A DNA stretch of 64,000 nt from positions 558,001-622,000 of the forward strand of contig NZMW01000001.1 of assembly GCA_002694685.1 (NCBI GenBank), given 5' to 3'. Made by a program: the position numbers and the translations under genes. Positions within the stretch are counted from its first letter, which is position 1; every line of letters starts with the position of its first letter. The DNA is from Balneola sp. GTDB taxonomy: Bacteria > Bacteroidota > Rhodothermia > Balneolales > Balneolaceae. The notes beneath the pieces were generated by a model. It was not told the origin of the DNA and made no database searches. It worked only from the letters and a program-made list of their open reading frames with translations. Of the stretch, positions 11,353 to 24,938 are shown one piece after another.

Positions 11353-11420
11353 AAAAGCTGCGTGGTTGATACATCTGAAATTCGCGTTGAATATCGGGAT
11401 ATTTTCACTGCATGTGAAAT

Positions 11421-11454
11421 AAAAAAACCCCGCCTTTTTCAAAAAGCAGGGTTT
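11421..11454 (-). terminator. Rho-independent terminator of the propeller two-component genes
   Basis: On the minus strand AAACCCTGCTTTTTG pairs with AAAAAGGCGGGGTTT (one mismatch), followed by a run of T. It lies downstream of the response regulator at 11598-12236 and stops its transcript before the AtuA-like gene. Confidence 0.85.
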
Positions 11455-11597
11455 AATCTATTAGGTTAGTTATGTCTTGGAAGGACTAACTGATTCAACA
11501 TAAAAAAACTGTGGCGTTTAATAACCGCATGATGATGTGGTTTTGAGAAAATAACTGAATTTAAACAGCCTGAATACCTAAGAAATAGCTTCTTATT

Positions 11598-12236
11598 CTA
11601 ATTCGTACCAGGATTAATTAACTTTTTGCTGATGCCTTTTGCAATTGCTTCAGAGCGTGAATGAACTTCCAGTTTTTGATAGATATTGCGGATATGGTGG
11701 CGAACTCCATCAACCGATAAAAATATCTTCTTCCCTATTGCAGCATATGATCGGCCTGTTGCAAGCTGTTCTAAAATCTGGAGCTCTCTATCGGAAAGTT
11801 CTTCTTCTAAATCTGCGGCTCTTTGGAAAGTAGCAATAACCTTCCGTGCTATATTAGGTGTAATGGGTGAGCCTCCGTTTTGGGCATCACGAATAGCGTG
11901 TACTAGTTCATCAGGAGTAACTTTTTTCATCAGGTAGCCAACAGCTCCTGCTTTTAGCGCGTCAAAGATGTGGTCATCATCGTCATGTACAGTAGCCATT
12001 ATAATGTTAACATCGGGATGATGCTCCCGCATGTATTTTACACCCTCGATGCCTGTCATTCCAGGCAAGCCAATATCCATAATTGCCAAATCAATCTTAT
12101 TGATTTGTTCAGATTCAAAGGCCTCTTCACACGATCCAAAAGTTCCTATAACCGTTAAGTCTTTTTCATGATCAATAAACGTTTCCCATCCCTCTCGCAT
12201 GTATTCATTGTCTTCAATTATTCCAACTTTTATCAC
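11598..12236 (-). CDS. LuxR/NarL-family response regulator (partner of propeller kinase)
   Basis: A 212-residue two-domain transcription regulator. Receiver domain residues 1-120: acidic pocket E8-D9, phospho-acceptor D54 (IDLAIMDIGLPG), T82 (MATVHDD) and K104 (LMKKVTP). The C-terminal LuxR helix-turn-helix spans about 146-205 (LSDRELQILEQLATG, recognition helix SVDGVRHHIRNIYQKLEV). The start codon is GTG. It is clearly paralogous to the regulator at 22250-22870, with nearly identical recognition helices, so the two should read similar DNA. The gene is separated from its kinase by 85 nt that hold an 18-bp palindrome and a -10-like box, implying its own, probably autoregulated, promoter. Confidence 0.93.
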   Translation of the reverse strand: MIKVGIIEDNEYMREGWETFIDHEKDLTVIGTFGSCEEAFESEQINKIDLAIMDIGLPGMTGIEGVKYMREHHPDVNIIMATVHDDDDHIFDALKAGAVGYLMKKVTPDELVHAIRDAQNGGSPITPNIARKVIATFQRAADLEEELSDRELQILEQLATGRSYAAIGKKIFLSVDGVRHHIRNIYQKLEVHSRSEAIAKGISKKLINPGTN

Positions 12237-12270: not shown

Positions 12271-12317
12271 CAAATATAGGATGTAATGCTACGAATCCCA
12301 CTACATACCTATGTGGT
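12271..12317 (-). promoter_or_regulatory. Putative operator/promoter of response regulator 1
   Basis: The 18-bp near-palindrome ACTACATACCTATGTGGT lies at 12300-12317 (7 of 8 arm positions pair). Read on the minus strand, exactly 21 nt later comes TATATTTG (12278-12271), a full match to the Bacteroidota -7 element TAnnTTTG. The start codon follows 34 nt after the box. The same operator-to-box spacing occurs at two other loci in this window. Binding by a response regulator is inferred. Confidence 0.65.
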
Positions 12318-12321
12318 CTTA

Positions 12322-15207
12322 CTACAAAGGGACTTTCAGAATCCAGCGTGTTCCAAAACCTTCCGAAGTTTTTAAGGAGATCTCACCCTTAATCTGATCT
12401 ACTCTTTTTTGAATATTAACCAATCCGTTTCCTTTTTTCACTTTATCGACATCCATTCCCTGCCCATCATCTTGTACAACAAGCTTAAGTGTTCCTTGTT
12501 CATTTTTCAGGATCACATCCAGGTTCTTTGCATCAGAATGACGAACTGCATTGGTTACCATTTCCTTAAAAATCAGCCAGAGGTGCTGGCGAAACTGCAT
12601 ATCCAGTTTTCCCGGAATGTATTCATCAATTTTAAGACTGTATTCTATTTCTTTGCTTTCTAAAAGGTCGGAAGCAAATCGCCGGCATTTAGATAAGAAT
12701 CCCTGCCAGTCATCATGTTCAGGGTTAATTGCCCATACAATATCTGAGATCTTCTCTTTGGCATCTCCCGCACTGTTGGCAATAAGATCCACGAACCGAT
12801 TTTTGTCCTTGGTGACAGAATCACTTTTTATAGCTTGTGCAAAATAGCTGATACTGCTCAGGGTGGCACTAACCTCATCATGAAGGTCGCTGGCAATATT
12901 GTTTCGAATACGCTGAACCCTCATAATTTGGTTAATCCTGATTTTATAAAGCATATATAAAAACCCGGCAACCCCGAAAGTATAGAGTAAATACGCCCAC
13001 CATGTTCGATACCATGGGGGTAATACTTCAAAGGAGAAGGACTCCGATTCACTCACAACATCAAAAATATTACGTGCCTGTACTTTAAAACTGTATTCTC
13101 CTTCAGGAATATTGGTATAGTCTTTTTGCGTTTCAGAGGTCCAATTAGACCACGTTTGATCAAACCCTTCTAGTCTAAATCTATATTCGGTATCCTCCGC
13201 TTTAAAGTAAGAAGCGGCAGCATAGGTAAACCGGAGTTCATTTTCACTGTATCTAAGAACAGGCTTCTCAGTTTCACTCCCTCCATTAATCAAAGAGTCG
13301 TTGCGTACTAACACTTCATTTATTTGAAGATGATCTTTTTCCAAGGAATCAAACCTGTCGTTCTTTTTAAAGCTAACTAACCCGTCTCCGGTTACATACC
13401 AAATAACTCCAGTTCCGTCTGCATAAATTCCATTACTCTGGGGTTTATCAATTAACTTGAGAGCTGCTTCATACATCTTATAAGTCCCATCAGGTTGTAA
13501 CAAAGCTCCTTGATACTCTCCTGCAGCCCTAAACCATATATCTCCATCAACGTCCTCTTCTGCCCAGAAAAATTGGTTTGTGGTATCCGAAAAAAATTCT
13601 CCATATCGCTTATCCTGAACAAATTCTCCAGTTTCAGGATCTAAAGTTTGTATACCCTTACCCCAGGTTAAAAAAGCAGGAGCACCATTTAAATCAGTTA
13701 CGTGAATTCTCCGATCATCTTCACCATTCTCTATGTCCAGAAAAAATGAATCAACTTTATGGCTAATAACTTGATCACCCTCCCATTCCAGCACAACTTT
13801 AGTCAATCCCGAAGTTGTACTTCCAACCCAAATTTGGTTAAGGTCATCTACATAAACAGAAACCGGTATAGAAACATCTGCATCAATTTCATAGATCGGC
13901 TCAATGCTATTTCCTGTTTCTTTTCCAATCCATATTCCCCCTTCATACGCTAATACAAAAACATCTTTATCACTAAGCTTATCGAATTTTAACACATCTT
14001 TATTTACAATTTCTTGGTACCCATCTAAAGACTTTTTGTAAAGGTTCTCACCACAAACAACATATAGCGCATTTTCTATCTCTTTTATCTGTCCACAACT
14101 TGCACTAAACTCTGTCTTCTCAACTATACCTTTCTGATCAAATTGATACATGCCTTCCGATGAAGAAATGAAGAAAGAGTTGTTAAATTTCAAAATATCA
14201 TACATAGAGCCTTCAATACCCATTCTCTCATCGAAACTTCTTAATGGAAGTCCAAAATCAATTCTTGAAATCCCAGCCACTGTAGCCGCCCAAACACTAC
14301 CATTTCTATCTTCATAGACTCCATAAACGGTATTGCTAATTAGACCACTTTCAGTATCAATAATATTTAATATTTCTCCCTCTGCACTAAGATGTACAAC
14401 CCCACCTGTTCGGGTAGCAATAGCAATTGTACTGTCCTGAAGGGCGATGGCTTCATCTAGAAAGTTATCTTCAAAATACTGATCAGCCTCTGTATGAAAG
14501 GGTTCAAAGTTTTGCCCATCATAAACAAAGCATTTTGAGCTACTGCAGTAGAAGTCAGAATCCCCAATTTCAAAGAACCCAAAAAAACTTCTTTCAGCGA
14601 AGTATTCTCCACCGGGAACGAGGCTAAGAGTATTGCCTTTTAATTCTTTTATACCCTCTAAGGCATCCCGTACAAAAACACGATTGGCTCTGGTATGGAT
14701 AGACGAAAACCAGACATTGGGTTTGATTGTTTGAAGAGAATCACCGTCATAAGTAATTAACACTGATCCGGATTGGAAGTAAAGATTGTCACCCTGAGAA
14801 GCTAGATCAAAGATTCGACCAATATCCAGAGAATCCGGCACCAGATTTCTAAGTGAGAAATACTCAGTGGTTGCTTCACCGGCTGATGTTGGTTTACCTA
14901 AGTATCCAAACTCATCCGTACCACCAACAAATACTTTGCCGGAGCTGGTAGCACTAATTGAGTAAGATCGCCCATTGGGAATACTGATTTTTTTCCAGTT
15001 TACCCCGTCATACCGAATGACGTTCTGAAGGTTTGAAAAGTACAGCACTCCATTTGAATCTTCAGCAAATGCCCAATTCTGACTATGCCCATCATATTCT
15101 TCCGGGGCATAGTTTCGAATATTTGGCAATCCCTCTTTAAACCCTTGTGCCGTAGTAAAAAGAGGGAATAAAAGGAACATTGTAAAAACAGATAGAAGTG
15201 CTTTCAT
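12322..15207 (-). CDS. Sensor histidine kinase with periplasmic beta-propeller and Y_Y_Y domain
   Basis: A 961-residue membrane kinase. A signal peptide (residues 1-20, TTA then Gln) leads into a long periplasmic region (about 25-660) with propeller-type repeats such as WAFAEDSNGVLYFSN and GVYEDRNGSVWAATVAGI, the Reg_prop pattern. A Y_Y_Y beta-sandwich follows (about 665-730: YRFRLEGFDQTWSNW ... FKVQARN). One membrane helix spans about 736-756. The cytoplasmic HisKA_3-type core has H776 in DLHDEVSATLSSIS. The ATPase domain has an N-box (VTNAVRHSD), DDGQGM and GNGLVNI. This layout matches the sensor half of Bacteroidota hybrid systems that sense glycans or breakdown products, but the regulator is a separate protein here. 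The ligand is unknown. Confidence 0.92.
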   Translation of the reverse strand: MKALLSVFTMFLLFPLFTTAQGFKEGLPNIRNYAPEEYDGHSQNWAFAEDSNGVLYFSNLQNVIRYDGVNWKKISIPNGRSYSISATSSGKVFVGGTDEFGYLGKPTSAGEATTEYFSLRNLVPDSLDIGRIFDLASQGDNLYFQSGSVLITYDGDSLQTIKPNVWFSSIHTRANRVFVRDALEGIKELKGNTLSLVPGGEYFAERSFFGFFEIGDSDFYCSSSKCFVYDGQNFEPFHTEADQYFEDNFLDEAIALQDSTIAIATRTGGVVHLSAEGEILNIIDTESGLISNTVYGVYEDRNGSVWAATVAGISRIDFGLPLRSFDERMGIEGSMYDILKFNNSFFISSSEGMYQFDQKGIVEKTEFSASCGQIKEIENALYVVCGENLYKKSLDGYQEIVNKDVLKFDKLSDKDVFVLAYEGGIWIGKETGNSIEPIYEIDADVSIPVSVYVDDLNQIWVGSTTSGLTKVVLEWEGDQVISHKVDSFFLDIENGEDDRRIHVTDLNGAPAFLTWGKGIQTLDPETGEFVQDKRYGEFFSDTTNQFFWAEEDVDGDIWFRAAGEYQGALLQPDGTYKMYEAALKLIDKPQSNGIYADGTGVIWYVTGDGLVSFKKNDRFDSLEKDHLQINEVLVRNDSLINGGSETEKPVLRYSENELRFTYAAASYFKAEDTEYRFRLEGFDQTWSNWTSETQKDYTNIPEGEYSFKVQARNIFDVVSESESFSFEVLPPWYRTWWAYLLYTFGVAGFLYMLYKIRINQIMRVQRIRNNIASDLHDEVSATLSSISYFAQAIKSDSVTKDKNRFVDLIANSAGDAKEKISDIVWAINPEHDDWQGFLSKCRRFASDLLESKEIEYSLKIDEYIPGKLDMQFRQHLWLIFKEMVTNAVRHSDAKNLDVILKNEQGTLKLVVQDDGQGMDVDKVKKGNGLVNIQKRVDQIKGEISLKTSEGFGTRWILKVPL

Positions 15208-15248
15208 AAAAAGTAACCGTTGCTACTTATTTCCGGTTATTTTTCTCC

Positions 15249-15596
15249 TTATGGTCTACCTGATTGTGGTGGGTCTACATCCACATCATGACTGTCCAAA
15301 ACTTCCTTATTATTTTTACTTAATTGAAAGTTAGTAACCTGAAATATATAGGTATCCTTAAAATCATTATCAGGATCTTTGGGAATGCATTGAATGAATC
15401 GAAAGATGAGATTTGTGTTACAACTTAGTTCAAAACCCTGACCATTTGGTACTCTAAAAGCAACATATTTGTCTTTGTCTTGAAAATCACCATGTGTTTT
15501 TTTCTTTAGGTTTTTAAACTTGAATTTAGAACTCAAGCTACTGACCGCCCCGATCTCTATATCTGTATCTAGTTTATTAAATAAATCAATTTTCAT
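15249..15596 (-). CDS. Hypothetical protein, 115 residues
   Basis: No family recognised. The product is small, lysine- and aspartate-rich, with no signal peptide or membrane helix. It begins MKIDLFNKLDTDIEIG and ends with a polar, Pro/Asp-rich tail (DVDVDPPQSGRP). Its middle part alternates hydrophobic residues (YVAFRVPNGQGFELSC, LIFRFIQCIP), suggesting a small beta-rich domain. It lies just 41 nt upstream of the propeller kinase on the same strand and could be co-transcribed with it. The frame is clean, but coding status is only supported by length and position. Confidence 0.55.
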   Translation of the reverse strand: MKIDLFNKLDTDIEIGAVSSLSSKFKFKNLKKKTHGDFQDKDKYVAFRVPNGQGFELSCNTNLIFRFIQCIPKDPDNDFKDTYIFQVTNFQLSKNNKEVLDSHDVDVDPPQSGRP

Positions 15597-15969
15597 TGGT
15601 TCAATCTATTGTTTGGGTTGAATTAAGTGTCATGAAATTTGCAAGAACATTCAATACATGATTATGCGGTTGAAGTACGCTTTAAATTGGTAGTAAGTCA
15701 AGCGAATGCAAGAACCTATTTTTCACTACTCTTTCTAGCAAGCACCCTTTTTTGGTTGTTAGAGAACCAGAAAAGCGCTTACAAATTTAACTTGACTCAA
15801 TTAGTTAAGATTTACACATTGCAACATTATGTAATCATTAAACTACATAGTCAGGTAGTGAACCTTACATAATAAATTGTTATTTAATCGACGCCTTCCA
15901 CTTGTTACGGGGTTTTAAAAACATTTGGACAGGTACAAATAAAACATAAAATAATACAAAGGGGTAATC
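15597..15969. other. Intergenic region ahead of the giant secreted-protein gene
   Basis: A 373-nt AT-rich stretch between divergent genes. It holds a putative operator/promoter at 15842-15888 and a possible extra half-site (TTGGTAGT) at 15687-15694. I see no convincing gene; a 77-codon plus-strand frame here covers the operator and resembles nothing known. Confidence 0.6.
15842..15888 (+). promoter_or_regulatory. Putative operator/promoter of the giant secreted-protein gene
   Basis: ACTACATAGTCAGGTAGT at 15842-15859 matches the 18-bp pattern seen at both response regulator genes; its outer arms pair, with two inner mismatches. Exactly 21 nt downstream comes TATTTAAT (15881-15888), a -10-like box at the same spacing as at 12271-12317 and 22885-22931. 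The coding start is 81 nt further on, leaving a 5' leader of roughly 75 nt. Control by one or both LuxR-type regulators is inferred. Confidence 0.6.
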
Positions 15970-18900
15970 ATGAGATCTAGATTTCTACCATTTCTGTATG
16001 CAATAATTATGCTCTTTTTGGGAACGCAGTACGCGTATTCTCAGGATGGAGTATTTGACGACACATTTGTCGCACCAGATTCGGCTCAAATTTTGGGCAC
16101 TAATACATCGGTGTTTCAATTTGATATAGATCCTTCTGTTTTAACAGACAGCTTGGATTATATAGAGGTTGATGTATTCGCTCAAGGCGATACACTCAAT
16201 TTCGTTCAAATTTATCAAAAAGGGACTGATGCGGATGGTGCTTTTACACCTGCATTTGCTTCCGATGAATCTTTTTCAACTACCGGATTAGCAATAGAAA
16301 ATACCTACGAGGGTACTTTTGCACCGAATACATCTAATTTCTATACAATAAGAGCGCGAGCATATGTGGATGATGACAACGATCCAAATAATGCCTCTGT
16401 ACTTAACGGAGAAATTTACGTTGATGTATATATTGATGACGACAACCCAGTTGCTGCATCAACACAGTTAATCAATTATGTTAGCAATGAACCTAGAATT
16501 GGTGGTGACACCCTTAGTGTTCAAATCCAAGATGATTTTATCGACTATTCGAATGATGATTTTGAAATAGAGTTATCTGTATTTGATGGGCTTGATACTA
16601 CTTTTACTGCCTCCGGATCGATAACAGACCACTTTAATTCAGGAGCTCTGATTGATACTACAAGGAATGATTCTTTAGATTATACCTTCATTTTCTTGGT
16701 TGATTTCACAGAATATGTCCCTGACTCACCAACTAACCCAACCATCGATGTTGATATAACTGATGGAGCAGGAAATGAGACTGAAACTCAACTAACACCA
16801 CTTGTCAATGACAATACTGCTCCCACTGTAGAATTACTGACTATTGATGGTGCAGATCCTACGGAAGATGTTATTCCAAATGCGAACACGGGTACCAACA
16901 CTCTTATTTATGATGTTCGGGACACATATCTAAGTGCAGACAGTTTAAGGGATGACTACAACTTCGATCTCACACTTTTCGGAGAGAGTTTTTCCGGTAC
17001 TATTGAGGAACACGAAGATGCAGGAAGACTTACCGTAGTTGGAGATACAAGCTTTGTATTTAACGTGAATCTCAAACCTAATACACAAAGTAACGGTAAT
17101 ATCTCACTCGAGGTAACTGATGCAGCTGGTAACTCAGCTACTGATACTGATAATATCGATATCGCTGACTTTAACACAGATGATTACTATCTGATGCAGC
17201 CTTATCCACACACTGCATTCAATGATGATATTACTGTTCAGTTGACTCCAAATAAAGAAGGTGAGTATACCGGAGCCACTATTTATCTGTCAGCAAATGC
17301 AGATCTTAGTAGCCCTGATACCACTTATACTTTAGATGATGCGGATTTAAATGGTGTTTTTGATACTCCTGCTAGCCTTGGGCTAACTGATGGCGGAATG
17401 TATTATGTAGGTGCAGTTGTCACTAATGCTGATAACTCAACTTTCGATACCAGAGTAAACCCTGTATTCTACGATACTACCGCACCAAGCTTAACTATTG
17501 ATCTGCTTGATGCTATTGACTTTGGTGGAACAGATTATGTTACAGGAGATAACACCAGAATTCAGTTTAATTCTGATGATGATGATTTAAATGAGTTAGA
17601 TGTGGATGTTCAACGTGTGATAATTGACTCTACTACAAATTTCTTTAACCTCACTACATTAGAAGATTATCCTTTCCGGTTCTCATTCGATTCGGAAGAT
17701 TATGATGACGATGCCACTGATGAGTTGTTTGATGGAACCGTTGTATTTCGCGTAACATCTACCGATAACCTCGGTAACGAAAGCATGCCAATGTACTTCC
17801 CGGTTAATGTGGACAACGTTTCTGCTGATTATATCCTTTCCGAAGTTAATGGAATAGATATTCTGGCTGATAACGCTGATGGTAACTACCCTCCTATTAA
17901 CGCAGGTGAAACTCTCACTCTTGAGTTTACTCATTATGCAGATGACATTGCAGATGACGGAGCTGAGTTTGAATTGGAGTATGACGGCGAAACCCTCGTC
18001 GGTGTTATCACAGCTCAAACAACAGACACATATACTGTTGAGTTTGAAATACCAGATAATGATGGTGACGAAACTATCAATCTTACACCTGGCGGTGGCG
18101 ATTTAACGGTTAACTTCACTGATGTATTTGGAAATGAAAATGAAAATTACATCGGAACTCCTGATGTAGGAAGCATTCAAATTTTCAACAACGAGTTGCC
18201 TTGGATTGGTCTTGATGATGACTTTTCCGAAGAACTTGTAAGGGATACTCTCGAGCTCGAACTTACTGTAAACAGTACAGTAGAGTTAATCGATAGTGTG
18301 GCCCTGGAGTATGCAACGTACACTGACACGGATACAACTGCATTTACTCAAATAATGGTGTTTCCTTACGACTCTGTACAAGCAAATCCTATTTATGGTC
18401 TGCCAACTGCAGAATATGATGACGGGAAATACTTAATCCGAACAAGAACATATGGCTATCAGTACGATCGCTTTGACGGTGATCTTGTAGAAGTAGAAGA
18501 TAGTGCCTACGCCGTCCGTTTTGATAACACTCATAACGGAACCACAGAGCGCGTGGCTATTCTTGCACAACCTGATACGACCCTTCACGGTTCTGAAGAT
18601 ATTGAGCTTTATGCGGCCAATAACGGAGACGCATACGGAACTTTATTTGAAGGTATGTTTGTAGCAACCAACCCTACAGTTGAAGAAGATGCAGATACCT
18701 CATGGGTATTACTTGATTCTGTAGTTACTGAATCAAGTGATGGTATTTTCTCAACTACAGTTGACGAAACCACTCTTGAAACCTTATTTGACATAGATAA
18801 TGTTGAAGGTGTATTCACTTTCCGTGCTGTTGGTTTTGACTCTGCAGGTATCTACCAGAATATCAGCGGTAATATGGATGATCCATCTGAAGTAGCTACC

Positions 18901-21672
18901 ATTACGGTCTACTACGATGATATTCCAGCTACCGGGACAATCGCCGTAAACGGAATGTCTATTGAGCATCCCTCCTCTCCTGTCAACTCAGATAATTGGG
19001 CAGCTCAAGACTTTAGTGACTTTAACGTTTGGAGCGGAACGGTTAACATTGGTTTCGAACTGGATGAAGAAGAGAATAACTTTGACAGAGCTGTTCTCGA
19101 TATTCGAAGAAAAGCCGCCAGAGAACCTGGTGATTCTGATAACTTCCGATCTGAACAAGATCAGACCATTGCTACAATGGAAGGTGAAGGTGCAGAATAC
19201 GCACTTGATGTTGATGCTTTAGATCAAGGTGCTGTTTATGAACTAACCCTATATCTAGTTGATTCATATGGAAACCGATCTAATGCAGGTACTGTAGAAT
19301 TTGCTACTGTTGGACCAAGAGCACACATTACAGGTATGAGTGACGAGCATGGTGATATATACATCCAGGCTACTCCATATACCCGAAGTGTTATTCTGGA
19401 AGTTTCTGCCGATGGTGGAACCACCTATGAGCAAGTTTCTTACATTGAAGATGATGACTTCGATTACTTCACTTCTAATGGATACGATGCTTATAAATAT
19501 GACATGATGAATCTAGAAGATTTCCAGTTGCCACTGGGTGACCTGACTTTCAGATTGACAGCCGGTGAATCTGAAGAGCTTTACGAGTCAGAGTATCAAA
19601 ACTCTACTACACTTGTAATTAATCATGCAGAAAGCAATGATGTAAGAGCAAAAGCCGGACCTGAAGTAACTCAAATGCAGGGTACCTTCACCCCGGTCAC
19701 AACCACTGACATTGACTTATCTCTTTACAGAGAACGAGGAGATATCAATGACATCCGAGTTGAAATTGCTCCAATTAACACCAACGATAACATCAGCCTC
19801 TTCCTTCTTGCGGACGAGAACCCATTTTCTACTCTAAACAGTTTAGAATATGCTATGTATCCAAGATGGGCTGATTATGATTACTCTACCAACTTCGGTA
19901 TCACTTCCCCACTTGAGTCCATAGATGGCAACTATCTTGGATTCCTTGATGATGGAGATGCTATCGATCTTGATGGAAGTGTTGACATCACAGCCGGTGG
20001 TAAGTTTTACGCTTATGTCACCACGGTCATGCCTAATGGCGAAACCATTATGACTCGCCAAATGCTTGAAGTGAATCGTGTTGCTGCTCAGAATGGCGGT
20101 TCTGTTACCTCACCAAACGGTAACTTCGAACTTAACATTACCGAGAATACCCTTGAAAACAATGCTAACCTCATTATTGAGGAAGATCCTTCAAGCTTAT
20201 TCTTTACACATGACAGCGAAGCTCAATACGGACAAATAGGTACTGCTTATTACCTCCGCGCATTTAAAGGAGATGTACGTGATGGAAGAAGGGTAAACTT
20301 CTCTATTACATATGATCCTAACGATGTTATGGATTTAAATGAGGATGGATCTATTGAAGACGAATTAGCACAGTTATGTGTGGGTTATTCTGAACTGAAT
20401 GATACCGAAATAGTATTCTTGGATATTCTTGAAAAAGAAGTCGATACCGAGAATAACATGGTTCATTTCAGTATGGAGAATCTGCCATCAAATACACAGA
20501 GGTTTGCTCTAGTACTTGAAGGTGCGGTTGTAAACAATCCGGGTTCTATTTCGGTTGTTAATACTTCCCTAATGGCTGCTGATAAGCCTTATGTTAACGA
20601 AGATCATGAACTATCAATCACGGTAACTGATGACAAAGTGAATAGCTTTGATGATTACTGGGTAATAGTTGACGGTTCAGTTGTTAGTGCAGATACATAT
20701 TCTGCTGATGGCTTCCAGAATGGTTGGAAAATCGTAGTTGATAATTCAATTGAAGACTTGAACCTGAATGAAGGGTTACACACCGTTCGCTTCGTAATCA
20801 CCAATGAAAATGGTAACCGATTAGACGTTACTTACGATTTCATTGTGGATAAGAAGAAACCAGTTATTTCACAAGGTGCTGTACAGTTTGTGGATATGAT
20901 TGAGTCAGGTCATAAGAATACCCTCTCCTTCAATGTAACCGATGCGATGGCTGGAGATCAGCCTGGATCTGGCGTTTCATTAGATGAGATCTTTGTAGAT
21001 GTGTATTTAGTAGAGCCGGATGTTAGATTCGGAGTTTACGACACAACTACTGGAACCTGGCATTATTCTCAGGACGTCTTCAAGCGCTACTTCAAGCAGT
21101 ACAGTGAAGGTGACTTCATTGTAGATGAGGGTAGCACTGCCGATTCCTTGGGAATTATGTTTGAGGTAGTATTCAATCAGGAGCTGGATGTTTCCGGATA
21201 TGAATTCGTTGTTCATAATGGAGACTTTGTCTTTGATGAAGATTCTCTGAATGAATGCGAAACTGTATGTCGAAAAGATGACTTCGAGATTGAGAACTAT
21301 TACGAAGGTGGCATTTCAGATATGGCCCTTAACCAGGCAAATGCTGTATCCTTCTCTGTAGGTATCGATCCGACCGTAACATCTAACGAAGGTGAAAGTG
21401 TGATTCCTGAAGAGTTCCATTTAGATCAGAACTATCCGAATCCATTCAACCCATCGACAACTATTCAGTACGGTATTCCCGAAGCAAGCGAAGTAACCAT
21501 GAAGGTCTATAACGCTCTTGGGCAAGAAGTAATGACACTCGTGAATGATCAGAAGAGCGCTGGTACTTATAAAGTCCAGTTCGATGCTGCAAACCTCGCT
21601 AGTGGAATGTACATCTACCGAATAGTTGCCGGAGATTTCGTACAAACCAAAAAACTAATGCTGATTAAGTAA
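15970..21672 (+). CDS. Giant secreted repeat protein with C-terminal sorting (type IX-like) domain
   Basis: A 1900-residue exported protein, very rich in Asp, Thr, Glu and Asn. The signal peptide is residues 1-24 (GTQYAYS, Gln at +1). The body consists of many beta-sandwich-like segments with recurring openings such as [26 protein letters not shown] and [12 protein letters not shown], as in Ig-like or bacterial cadherin-like surface proteins. The abundant DxDxD-type acidic loops suggest Ca2+ binding. A Cys pair (NECETVC) lies near residue 1760. The last 85 residues are a sorting domain starting [17 protein letters not shown] and ending KKLMLIK, as in substrates of the type IX system. A strong SD-like AAAGGGG precedes the ATG. 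It is flanked by two sensor/regulator pairs and carries their presumed operator. Adhesin or matrix role is a guess. Confidence 0.88.
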
Positions 21673-21700
21673 AGTTAACTTAACTTAGTAACAACCTTTA

Positions 21701-21730
21701 AGGGGGCTGTCTTTTGGCAGCCCCTTTTTT
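21701..21730 (+). terminator. Rho-independent terminator of the giant gene
   Basis: GGGGCTG (21703-21709) pairs with CAGCCCC (21718-21724) around an 8-nt loop, followed by six T. It lies 28 nt after the stop codon. Confidence 0.93.
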
Positions 21731-21733
21731 AAT

Positions 21734-22040
21734 GGCCTGAACTTCACAACTATCCTGTCTTAAATAATATTAAGACTAAGAAATAATGAATGAGTTTTAC
21801 TTTTATTCCCCTATTCCCCCTATTAAGGGATCTGCTTTTCTAATAGTCACAATAATATCTCTGCAACAGTAAGATAACTTCTCTTATTTGAGGACCTTAG
21901 TTTATCTAAGGCTTGAACTTTAATTGTTAAGCTATATGTTTTCCTTTACTTGCCTTCCCGTTGAGCCTTCTTTAGTCATAGAAGTTTTAAAGAAGCATAG
22001 CACAAAAGGCTCTCATTGCTAACTAATAGATAAGCGAAAT
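21734..22040. other. Gene-free region with several inverted repeats
   Basis: No coding frame is supported here. Three hairpins are visible: GTCTTAA/TTAAGAC at 21757-21776, CCTTAG/CTAAGG with a 5-nt loop at 21895-21911, and CTTCTTTA/TAAAGAAG at 21967-21995. None is a typical terminator. It lies between the giant gene's terminator and the terminator of the TPR-kinase regulator. Confidence 0.5.
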
Positions 22041-22073
22041 AAAAAAGCCTGTCATATTCAATGACAGGCTTTT
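22041..22073 (-). terminator. Strong terminator behind response regulator 2 and the orphan operator
   Basis: A perfect 13-bp stem (AAAAGCCTGTCAT at 22043-22055 with ATGACAGGCTTTT at 22061-22073) and a 5-nt loop. On the minus strand it is followed by six T; on the plus strand by four, so it may also work weakly in that direction. It lies 177 nt beyond the response regulator stop. Confidence 0.92.
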
Positions 22074-22193
22074 AGCAGTTCTTTAGGTTAGTATAGATGT
22101 ATAAAATCGATTTGGTAATCTGTACCCCAAAAAACCCAAACCTGATTTATACTTTGATACTTTCTTAGTATCGATATTTTTTTTCTACCAAAC

Positions 22194-22211
22194 ACTGCAT
22201 ACTTATGCAGT
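22194..22211. promoter_or_regulatory. Perfect 18-bp palindrome, orphan copy of the regulator operator
   Basis: ACTGCATACTTATGCAGT: both 8-nt arms are fully complementary around CT. It matches the operator pattern found upstream of the two regulators and of the giant gene. It lies 38 nt behind the regulator stop at 22250, ahead of 120 nt without an ORF and a strong minus-strand terminator. Toward the minus side TATCGATA begins 18 nt away. It may drive a short untranslated RNA, or be a storage site. Confidence 0.55.
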
Positions 22212-22249
22212 ATTTAAAAGCTCTTTCCAGATGACCAATTCCAGAAAAA

Positions 22250-22870
22250 TCAAATAAGCTTATATCGCAAAGCTTTAGCAACAGCTTCACTTTTGTTACT
22301 TACCTCTAGTTTATTGTAGATATTTCTTATGTGGTACCTTACACCATCTACCGAAAGGAACACTTCTTTAGATATCCCTTTATAAGAAGAGCCTTCAGCT
22401 AAAAGTTTTAAAATGTCCGTCTCTGCTTCTGAAAGCTCGATCCCTGACTTATCACCATGAAATGAATTAATAACCTTACGGGCAATATTTGGACTCATGG
22501 GAGAGCCTCCTTCATTCGCTACGTGTACGGCATCAATTAGCTCTTCAGGGGATACTTTCTTTGAAAGATATCCAATAGCACCGTTTTTAAGAGCTTTAAA
22601 GATTCGCTCGTCATCATCGTGAATGGTAACCATCATCACGGTAATATCAGGGTGCTTCTTTCTAATAATCTTTACTCCTTCTGTACCCAGAATACCGGGT
22701 AACTGTATATCCAAAAGGACCACATTTGCTTTCTGCAGCTGAGTATCTTCAAATGCATCTTCGCAACTTTCATAATCAGCTATCACGCATAGGTCGGGCT
22801 CGAAATCAAGAATGGTTTTCCATCCTTCCCTCATATACTTGTTGTCTTCTATGATTACAATATTGATCAT
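22250..22870 (-). CDS. LuxR/NarL-family response regulator (partner of TPR kinase)
   Basis: A 206-residue regulator. Receiver: acidic E8-D9, phospho-acceptor D54 (VVLLDIQLPG), T82 (VTIHDDDERIF) and K104 (LSKKVSPEEL). The LuxR-type HTH covers about 140-200 with recognition helix SVDGVRYHIRNIYNKLEV, which differs from that of the regulator at 11598-12236 at only two positions (H/Y and Q/N). The full lengths are also clearly paralogous (IEDNxYMREGW, NGGSPxxPNIARKVI-type segments). Start ATG at 22870. A 94-nt gap to the upstream kinase gene contains an operator-like palindrome and a -10-like box, implying an independent promoter. Confidence 0.93.
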   Translation of the reverse strand: MINIVIIEDNKYMREGWKTILDFEPDLCVIADYESCEDAFEDTQLQKANVVLLDIQLPGILGTEGVKIIRKKHPDITVMMVTIHDDDERIFKALKNGAIGYLSKKVSPEELIDAVHVANEGGSPMSPNIARKVINSFHGDKSGIELSEAETDILKLLAEGSSYKGISKEVFLSVDGVRYHIRNIYNKLEVSNKSEAVAKALRYKLI

Positions 22871-22884
22871 CAGTAATTTTTAAT

Positions 22885-22931
22885 GATATATAGAAAAAGC
22901 TTCTGAGAAAACAACCACCTAAATAGGTAGT
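22885..22931 (-). promoter_or_regulatory. Putative operator/promoter of response regulator 2
   Basis: ACCACCTAAATAGGTAGT at 22914-22931 is an 18-bp palindrome with 7 of 8 arm positions paired. On the minus strand TATATATC (22892-22885) follows after exactly 21 nt, and the ATG comes 14 nt later. Spacing and motif agree with 12271-12317 and 15842-15888. With the box as -10, the palindrome is centred near -42, replacing the -35, as for a class II activator. Confidence 0.65.
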
Positions 22932-22964: not shown

Positions 22965-24938
22965 TCAGGATACATTGAAGGTAAAAGACCACGTAGTCCC
23001 GGCTCCTTCATCAGTGATAAGTTCAACTTCACCGTCAATTTGTTCGGCTCGATATCTGATATTCTTTATTCCATTCCCATTCTTGATTTTATCAGGATCA
23101 AAACCTACCCCATTGTCTATTATTTTCATATAAACTACATCGCCTTCTTCCGTCAGCGTAATTTCAACTTCTGTAGCTCTTGAATGCTTACTTAAATTCG
23201 TAACACATTCTTTGAAAATGAGCCATAAATTTTGCCTGACCTCGAGCTTTACTGGAAAGCTAAAGCTATCATCAATATTCATAGAGTAGGTTATATCGTT
23301 GCTATCTAAAACATCTGCTGCAAAACGTTTACACTTCTTTAGAAATATAGACCAATCGTCTTTAGATGGATCGATAGCCCAAATGATATCATTAATCTTC
23401 TCTTTGGCTTCGACAGCACTTTTGGTGATTACCTCTAAAAACCGTTGAGATTCATTGGGGTCTTTTCTAACCCTTTGTGCAGCTTCACTAAAGAAGCTGA
23501 TACTGCTAAGGGTACCGCTTAAATCGTCATGAAGATCTCTAGCAATTTGATTCCTTGTCCGTTCTTCTTTTAATAAATAATACACCCGATACCTGTAAAG
23601 GATATACCCTGCTGTCAATATCATACAAATGATGATGGCCATATTTCTTAGCCTGATGTTCTGTATTTCAAGATTGGCTGTATTCAACGCATCCTCTTTA
23701 TTCTGCAATTGATACCGCACTGTCATCATGGAAAGTCTCTTCTCTTTTTCAGATTTAAATTTTTCTTCATCCCGGATTCTTTGCTGTCTTTCAGCTTTCA
23801 GAGCCTCATCCATTCGTCCTAATCCCGCTAAAGCGTCAGACTTCAGGGCGTAGATTTCCTGTAGTATCAAGTTAAGGTTATGCTGGTTAGCTAAATCAAT
23901 CGCTTTTTCTGCATACTCCAAACTTTCAGAGTAATTCTTCTTCTTGAGTTCTACAGCCGATAAAAACTCATACTTTGTTATTTCTTCATTTGGCCTTGAA
24001 TAAGGTAAGACCGGGTTCTTGATTTTTGTAGCCATCGAATCAGCTTCTTCCAGTCTATCTAAGTCTAAATAAAACTTTCCTAGCCGAACCAGGTGACTAT
24101 TCGCCAAATTTGGAATACGATACTGACTGCTTACAGAAGCCCCTCTTTCCATAAGCTCTAGTGACTGTAATGTATCTCCAGTGAGCTTATACATTTGGCT
24201 TAAATTTGTATAAGTGATAGCCTTAATTGGTGGCGGGAGGTTTTCTATCTCCAAACAAGGGCTGAGCGTTTCTATGGCTTTTGTGTACTGCTGGAGTTCT
24301 ATAAAGCTCGCTCCTAATTTTGCCATTATGTTGCATCTTGAACCTGGATTATCTTCGAACTCCATGAACTTTTCAAACATGTCGATGGCTAAATCATGAG
24401 CCCCTACTCGTACATAAAGATTTCCAAGGTTAGCGTATAAAAAATGAATAGGAAACTCTGACTTTTCGCCAAGCTCAAGTCTGTAATTAATGGCATTTAA
24501 ATACAAAGACTCAGCTTTTATATAGGAGTTTTGGCGTTCATACTGTGATGCTTTCAGGTTCTCCATTGCCAAGTAGGAGTTATGCTCCCTGATGCTCTTT
24601 AGTGAAATAGAAGCCTTTTCAGCATAATAAATTGTAGAATCGGCGTTAAGAATCCGCCAAGCATTAGCCTTCAACAGAGAAGAAAAAGCCAATTTCTGAT
24701 CATCCTCTATTCCCTCCAGAGCATAAATATCATCAACCATTTTAAAAAGTGAATCGGGGGTATTCCTAAGGTACCTATTCCCCATTTCTACATACTTTCT
24801 GAGTTTCTCTTCAGGTTGCTCTACTTCTTGGATTTGCTTCCTTATATCACCCAGACTCATGGCGGGCATTCTTTGTTGGGCATGTGCTACCACAGTACAA
24901 CCCCAAATAAGTACCCCAAGACTAATCAACAACTTCAT
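22965..24938 (-). CDS. Sensor histidine kinase with periplasmic TPR repeats
   Basis: A 657-residue kinase. Signal peptide about 1-21 (VVAHA, Gln at +1). The extracytoplasmic part (about 25-425) is helical with TPR-type repeats, e.g. YANLGNLYVRVGAHDLAIDM, AITYTNLSQMYKLTGDTLQS and SLEYAEKAIDLA, followed by a coiled-coil stretch (ERQQRIRDEEKFKSEKEKR). One membrane helix lies at about 430-448. The HisKA_3 core has H470 in DLHDDLSGTLSSISF. The ATPase domain has VTNLSKHSR, DNGVGF and GNGIKNI. From the membrane inwards it is paralogous to the propeller kinase, so the two differ mainly in their sensor module. It lies upstream of, and with, its regulator. Confidence 0.92.
   Translation of the reverse strand: MKLLISLGVLIWGCTVVAHAQQRMPAMSLGDIRKQIQEVEQPEEKLRKYVEMGNRYLRNTPDSLFKMVDDIYALEGIEDDQKLAFSSLLKANAWRILNADSTIYYAEKASISLKSIREHNSYLAMENLKASQYERQNSYIKAESLYLNAINYRLELGEKSEFPIHFLYANLGNLYVRVGAHDLAIDMFEKFMEFEDNPGSRCNIMAKLGASFIELQQYTKAIETLSPCLEIENLPPPIKAITYTNLSQMYKLTGDTLQSLELMERGASVSSQYRIPNLANSHLVRLGKFYLDLDRLEEADSMATKIKNPVLPYSRPNEEITKYEFLSAVELKKKNYSESLEYAEKAIDLANQHNLNLILQEIYALKSDALAGLGRMDEALKAERQQRIRDEEKFKSEKEKRLSMMTVRYQLQNKEDALNTANLEIQNIRLRNMAIIICMILTAGYILYRYRVYYLLKEERTRNQIARDLHDDLSGTLSSISFFSEAAQRVRKDPNESQRFLEVITKSAVEAKEKINDIIWAIDPSKDDWSIFLKKCKRFAADVLDSNDITYSMNIDDSFSFPVKLEVRQNLWLIFKECVTNLSKHSRATEVEITLTEEGDVVYMKIIDNGVGFDPDKIKNGNGIKNIRYRAEQIDGEVELITDEGAGTTWSFTFNVS

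Follow-up and report, generated by a model that had tools for sequence, protein, structure and literature searches.

We study an 18-bp dyad, ACYRCMTANNYAKGYRGT, in a 64,000-nt stretch of the Balneola sp. genome (assembly GCA_002694685.1, contig NZMW01000001.1, positions 558,001 to 622,000; called the window below, and numbered from its first letter), where it recurs in an 11-kb island holding two response regulators, their neighboring sensor kinases and the gene of a giant secreted protein. We find that this operator is conserved together with one clade of NarL/LuxR-type response regulators. It is highly probable that the dyad is the site of a dimer of this clade, from which the regulator genes, the giant protein and two predicted small RNAs would be switched on by class II activation. 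An earlier note on this DNA had sketched a circuit in which two different sensors feed a single operator; its broad lines hold, but it lacks some of the targets and the division into half-site classes.

An operator that travels with a regulator clade

The two regulators, RR1 (11598-12236) and RR2 (22250-22870), both on the minus strand, each combine a receiver with a C-terminal GerE/LuxR helix-turn-helix domain, over the Pfam cut-offs, which is the layout of the NarL/LuxR type. Also on the minus strand are the kinases HK1 (12322-15207), with a Reg_prop propeller, Y_Y_Y and HATPase domains in Pfam and a HisKA_3 match slightly under its cut-off, and HK2 (22965-24938), with TPR, HisKA_3 and HATPase domains. 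The earlier note placed the dyad at 12300-12317, 15842-15859, 22194-22211 and 22914-22931 and called all four sites intergenic; the coordinates are right, no site has a mismatch to the pattern, and each lies between genes of the window. Two further island sites, at 11524-11541 and 15653-15670, had escaped it and have one mismatch each.

Close matches are rare. The exact pattern has six places in the 3.95-Mb genome, four of them inside the island (a rough estimate of the chance that four of six random places fall within one 11-kb stretch is 3e-7), and the reversed pattern, our control, has no exact match genome-wide, so the many random matches that the earlier note named as a possible refutation do not occur. 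Once two mismatches are tolerated, the pattern turns up no more often than its reversed version (60/58 versus 66/70), so only close matches carry weight.

We searched RR1 against 92 Balneolaceae genomes, counted a genome as holding the clade when it has a response-regulator match at E below 1e-55, and compared 40 stretches around the best relatives of RR1 and RR2. In these relatives the operator recurs at like places: between the regulator and the kinase stop codon just ahead of it, on the downstream side of the regulator, and in front of a giant secreted protein; the loss of the sites in relatives that could have undone the proposal is not seen. After inspecting these loci we widened the pattern at position 8 (A to R). 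The widened pattern matches in 36 of 39 genomes with the clade versus 11 of 53 without it (Fisher 1.8e-12), with 99 sites against 11, where the reversed control gives 12 and 7; the unwidened pattern gives 32 of 39 versus 5 of 53. Genomes without the clade hold 0.21 sites each, which is near the reversed control (7 in 53) and close to the uniform-base expectation of 0.24 sites per 3.95-Mb genome. Within the genus, all six clade genomes carry the operator (3-6 sites each) and none of the four non-clade genomes does. At the level of genes, a looser pattern with up to one mismatch finds a site no farther than 250 bp away for 44 of 52 clade genes, versus none of 20 other LuxR regulators within 2 kb. 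The operator is thus conserved together with the clade.

The sites also avoid genes. Across the window and 70 loci, the widened pattern with up to one mismatch gives 129 non-coding sites in 94 kb and 9 coding sites in 876 kb (open reading frames, ORFs, were called mechanically and make up 90% of the sequence), and three control patterns give 3, 0 and 0 matches. The site density itself is biased, because 30 of the 70 loci (L100-L129) were chosen for holding a match; the contrast between coding and non-coding sequence stays informative despite this choice.

Farther afield, we inspected 20 loci (L220-L239) from other families of the phylum, and in 15 of them a related regulator has a non-coding operator-like site within about 300 bp, by a looser pattern and with no control at such looseness. 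A sixteenth site, in L220, falls inside a mechanically extended ORF. These sites often lie downstream of the regulator and face secreted or small proteins (L220-L237). We considered and dropped the idea that small RNAs follow the operator outside the family, since the downstream site in L223, L226-L228 and L234-L236 points toward an ORF that begins 75-134 nt on.

Promoter geometry and predicted targets

Sites that have a gene on one side only can be oriented (n=95), and they reveal a fixed spacing: in 86 of the 95 there is, toward the gene and exactly 21 nt past the operator, a TAnnTT box with at least three of its four letters, and in 30 it has all four. At the same distance on the opposite side a box is found in 5 of 95, none with four letters, and the other offsets from 8 to 39 nt give 3-26 boxes on the gene side. 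Outside the islands, among the matches listed (a scope that holds for all counts outside the islands below), there are 31 exact sites in 30 loci, of which 28 are non-coding, and 25 of these 28 have the box in at least one direction. In Flavobacterium psychrophilum the sigma-A box sits at -12 to -5, according to the available part of PMC9723704. Combining this geometry with the 21-nt distance would place the operator center near -42, the position of class II activators; a site at the -35 place with a fixed box distance, as expected of class II promoters, is what the great majority of oriented sites have. In RR2 relatives from other genera the start codon follows 32-33 nt past the operator, a distance consistent with leaderless RR2 mRNAs that use the same start point. 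In five loci (L074, L078, L080, L096 and L098) about 5 nt separate the end of the box from the RR2 ATG, itself 32 nt past the operator, which again suggests leaderless regulator mRNAs.

Drawing on this geometry, we infer a mechanism in which a phosphorylated response-regulator dimer would bind the 18-bp dyad some 42 bp ahead of the point where transcription begins, take the place of the -33/-35 element and recruit RNA polymerase to the TAnnTT(TG) box 21 nt away. Both regulator genes would activate themselves, giving positive autoregulation. The RR1 operator (12300-12317, minus strand) lies between HK1 and RR1 at a distance of 63 nt from the RR1 start, with the box TATATT at 12278-12273, and the equivalent place is occupied in relatives; the RR2 operator (22914-22931, minus strand) lies in the HK2-RR2 gap, with the box TATATA at 22892-22887. 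The giant type-IX-sorted protein would be activated from the operator at 15842-15859 (plus strand), whose box, TATTTA, is at 15881-15886. Both elements are upstream of its gene (15970-21672, plus strand), and the 1900-residue product, a predicted direct target, ends in a Por_Secre_tail type IX sorting domain (43.7 bits against a Pfam cut-off of 27). The second site in the gap between a 115-residue gene and the giant gene, 15653-15670, has counterparts about 180 bp from the giant-gene site in L061-L063; it is either accessory or inactive.

Away from the islands, 21 sites have a box and a gene within 400 nt, and four of these genes (L108, L112, L113 and L120) encode a type IX sorting domain, the one in L112 scoring under the cut-off, in an ORF truncated by the edge of the locus. 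Our scan for the domain covered 18 of the 21 targets; with 56-76 such domains per genome in five genomes, and assuming 65 in 3400 genes, the chance of four is 6e-4. Two of the 30 loci with exact sites outside the islands, L117 and L119, come from genomes without the clade. A PEGA-domain protein or a close relative of it is an operator target in four genomes of the genus, the domain being detected in the two target proteins scanned.

The remaining two island sites, 11524-11541 (one mismatch) and 22194-22211, follow RR1 and RR2, respectively, and are both read on the minus strand; each seems to be the promoter of a small RNA that is conserved and has a terminator. The palindrome at 22194 is perfect, as the earlier note had remarked, but it lies downstream of RR2 with no listed protein gene behind it. 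The first site is followed at 21 nt by the box TATGTT (11502-11497) and then by predicted sRNA1 (11416-11496, minus strand; about 75-80 nt), with a CUUCC-loop hairpin, a CUAACCUAA stretch and an intrinsic terminator. Behind the second lies predicted sRNA2 (22036-22166, minus strand; about 130 nt), with a stem around GGUUUGG, a ACUAACCUAAAGAACUGC stretch and an intrinsic terminator. Their fold z-scores are -3.8 and -5.6. An alignment of seven genomes keeps the sRNA1 operator, a 21-nt spacer of variable sequence, the box, AGUCCUUCC, CUAACCU and the terminator, with both-sided changes at five terminator pairs and one pair of the first hairpin, and three of five covariation measures beat all 500 shuffles. 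The sRNA2 element with its terminator is shared by five genomes, of which two have the same sequence at this place.

Covariance models of sRNA1 and sRNA2 (R1 and R2), searched with stricter filters, exceed 80 bits at their own training loci only (7 and 5; the next matches score 44.9 and 36.6 bits), so these searches confirm specificity and not a wider spread, and we gave up a single covariance family for all of the small RNAs. An alignment of 11 assorted small-RNA-like stretches was too diverse for use, and Rfam 15 has no match over its gathering score in the window and five relatives, only sub-threshold ones. In other genera, units of operator, box, RNA and terminator with a different sequence lie between the regulator and AtuA (e.g. 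L076, L091 and L094). One such small RNA, in genus g11, located by a motif that excludes the operator, occurs at 13 places in 3 of the 92 genomes; 11 of 12 distinct copies have the operator within 130 nt upstream, as do 8 of the 9 copies that were not among the three used to write the motif. One carrier, G048 (57% complete), is yet counted among the genomes lacking the clade. In locus L248 (genome G047, contig C262) we observe four tandem operator-sRNA-terminator units with a GAGAAC-repeat small RNA.

If produced, the small RNAs could pass the signal to further mRNAs or proteins without CsrA or Hfq. At E 0.001 we find CsrA in none of six genomes, one of which is 84% complete, and in 3 of 14 control genomes; Hfq is likewise found in none of the six and in 5 of 14 controls. 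For each of the two small RNAs, pairing with the HK2 translation start ranks first among the 49 in the window, and it is the best of nine in L061 and L062, where the HK2 start codon is uncertain; in L060 and L063 it is no better than background, and we rejected this candidate. We also set aside AtuA as a direct target of the operator, since in the genus the sRNA1 terminator separates the two; in L123 the box reaching three of four letters points to the other gene. Between that terminator and the AtuA start lies a 14-bp palindrome at 11390-11403 (AATATCGGGATATT on the plus strand), identical in L060-L065, which is probably the operator of another regulator for the AtuA operon. In L067-L070 a likeness of sRNA1 is found on the other side of RR1, in the RR1 mRNA leader, where GTCCTTC precedes a hairpin-like stretch; it is a possible attenuator or fused small RNA.

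Two classes of half-site

Are all of these sites one and the same operator? The recognition helices, SVDGVRHHIRNIYQKLEV and SVDGVRYHIRNIYNKLEV, are as the earlier note gave them, and from their likeness it had proposed that both regulators may bind every site. The DNA-binding domains of the two groups show differences at other positions, and a midpoint-rooted tree of 52 rows parts an RR2 clade (16 rows) from an RR1 clade (36 rows). The halves of the operators divide accordingly: RR2-clade own promoters have CC in 14 cases, AC in one and no site in one, and RR1-clade own promoters have AA in 23, AG and AT in one each and no site in 11. In the window, both halves are of the CAT type before RR1 and of the CCT type before RR2, and the giant-protein operator is a hybrid with a distal CAT half and a promoter-proximal CCT half, as it is in L061, L062 and L063. 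Leaving RR2's own promoters aside, CCT halves are present at 15 of 47 sites where the genome holds RR2 versus 3 of 66 in RR1-only genomes (p 1e-4), and in hybrid sites the CCT half adjoins the promoter in 14 of 17 (14 versus 3, p 0.013), all these counts sharing ancestry.

Thus the compact regulon with a dedicated dyad that the earlier note described stands, and the equivalence of its sites does not: own promoters of the two clades differ in their halves, that of the giant protein mixes both kinds, two sites apparently drive small RNAs, and the site at 15653 has no box. RR1 would favor CAT halves and RR2 CCT halves, and at hybrid sites, the giant-protein operator among them, input from both sensors could come together. 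We set aside the H or Y of the recognition helix as the determinant, as RR1-clade members with Y keep CAT sites. In its place, sequence comparison offers positions 150 and 192 (RR1 numbering), which differ wholly between the clades, and 165 and 193, which differ largely, as candidates. We hold as a tentative and rather doubtful extension a stricter assignment in which RR1 reads CAT, RR2 reads CCT, hybrids are bound by an RR1-RR2 heterodimer and pure sites drive the regulators and small RNAs. If true, heterodimer-bound hybrid 18-bp sites would be a two-sensor gate for secreted proteins.

Alternative readings and known systems

Several observations pull the other way from class II activation by this clade. 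The related genomes make our counts not independent, 8 of the 52 clade genes lack a nearby site, the clade genomes G008, G015 and G077 have no exact match, and 11 of the 53 genomes without the clade nonetheless hold one. Outside the islands, 3 of the 28 non-coding exact sites lack the box and 3 of all 31 lie inside genes. Within the island, a box is missing 21 nt from the 15653 site on both sides, and the hexamer at 21 nt from the 22194 operator, GATACT, is a weak match. The figure of -42 rests on the box geometry assumed from Flavobacterium. For sRNA1, two of the five covariation measures are reached by shuffles (25/500 and 147/500), and only one of the 23 loci with weaker R1 matches (L147-L169) has its match directly after an operator (G035, 39 bits), the remaining 22 having no operator. 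Finally, the recognition helix does not separate the clades, there being RR1-clade members with H or with Y, and the half-site split may have arisen just once in evolution.

What else could the palindromes be? They are intergenic and have terminator-like hairpins nearby, as would befit hairpins working in RNA as attenuators, processing sites or terminators. Among 84 exact non-coding sites, however, the letters at positions 3, 4 and 8 vary in one half without regard to the other, with observed counts close to expected and many mismatched pairs (34 of the 84 are mixed at position 3); position 6 is not independent (AA 63, AC 12, CC 9 versus 56.7, 24.6 and 2.7 expected). The independence at the three positions argues for a protein-dimer site in DNA, dimer binding to inverted repeats being visible here only in this and in the operator's symmetry. 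Because the operators are upstream of the promoter box they also fall outside the predicted transcript, and we consider the RNA reading very improbable. Still harder to credit, to the point of being negligible, are dispersed repeats (like repetitive extragenic palindromes or miniature inverted-repeat transposable elements) or chance palindromes: several similar palindromes do share one island, but the genome has merely six exact places, and the 21-nt spacer varies while position, box spacing and clade co-occurrence are kept.

Two alternatives accept more of the picture, and both seem to us unlikely. The same regulators might act through the same operator as repressors, a dimer covering the -35 region and blocking polymerase until the signal displaces it. 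The operator does overlap the expected -33/-35 zone, a position that repressors also use, but no -35-like element is evident in the 21-nt spacer, the spacing fixed in 86 of 95 sites would be unneeded for repression, and NarL/LuxR response regulators at about -42 are usually activators. Alternatively, what the downstream sites drive might be attenuator leaders belonging to the next gene, and not free small RNAs. The sRNA1 terminator precedes AtuA on the same strand in the genus, but AtuA has its own conserved palindrome after that terminator, no ORF of at least 90 residues lies behind sRNA2 on the same strand before the 3' end of the giant gene, and the other type of small RNA forms complete tandem units of operator, RNA and terminator. 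Activation by this regulator clade, of protein and small RNA genes alike, accounts for these features best.

How does this compare with known systems? LuxO of Vibrio, a response regulator driving the several redundant Qrr small RNAs, is alike in plan. LuxO is a sigma-54 activator and the Qrr RNAs need Hfq, unlike the situation here, where Hfq is undetected. By sequence, the nearest solved full-length regulators are VraR, DevR, NarL and DesR, which share the receiver and GerE layout of RR1 at merely 81-115 bits; to our knowledge their operators differ from the Balneola dyad. Within the Bacteroidota, PG0720 of Porphyromonas gingivalis is a response regulator that turns on a regulatory RNA, asSuGR, by binding its promoter (available part of PMC8757827). 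That RNA is a single 550-nt antisense RNA and the partner kinase has a HAMP domain, unlike our system, and the words 'palindrom' and 'LuxR' are absent from the main text of PMC8757827. The one published Balneolota regulon that we found, that of LexA, has a direct repeat, TTACACATATTTTWTACATA, as its motif, unlike the dyad (available part of PMC7739468). The open-licence PMC literature yielded no paper on this operator and none on Balneolota small RNAs, the older spelling of the phylum being outside the latter search.

GacA of gammaproteobacteria, with RsmX, RsmY and RsmZ, is likewise a LuxR/NarL-type response regulator with a palindromic site and several related small RNAs. In GacA/Rsm a palindromic upstream activating sequence precedes the small RNA genes (available parts of PMC7911923 and PMC2375449), an arrangement that we find here at the level of sequence. 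The type of system is thus known, and the operator, the small RNAs and the half-site classes are new. Balneolaceae now have a defined operator, a promoter geometry and two predicted small RNA genes, and these paralogous regulators, a natural set whose half-sites fall into two classes, suit the study of LuxR-type specificity residues and of hybrid operators. The site quoted in the available part of PMC7911923 is unlike the Balneola operator, and the Rsm RNAs, by the same source, sequester RsmA/E through GGA motifs, a titration for which our six genomes offer no CsrA. Unlike GacA/Rsm, the Balneola operator also precedes regulators and secreted proteins, so that what we describe is a Gac/Rsm-like layout in genomes without detectable CsrA or Hfq.

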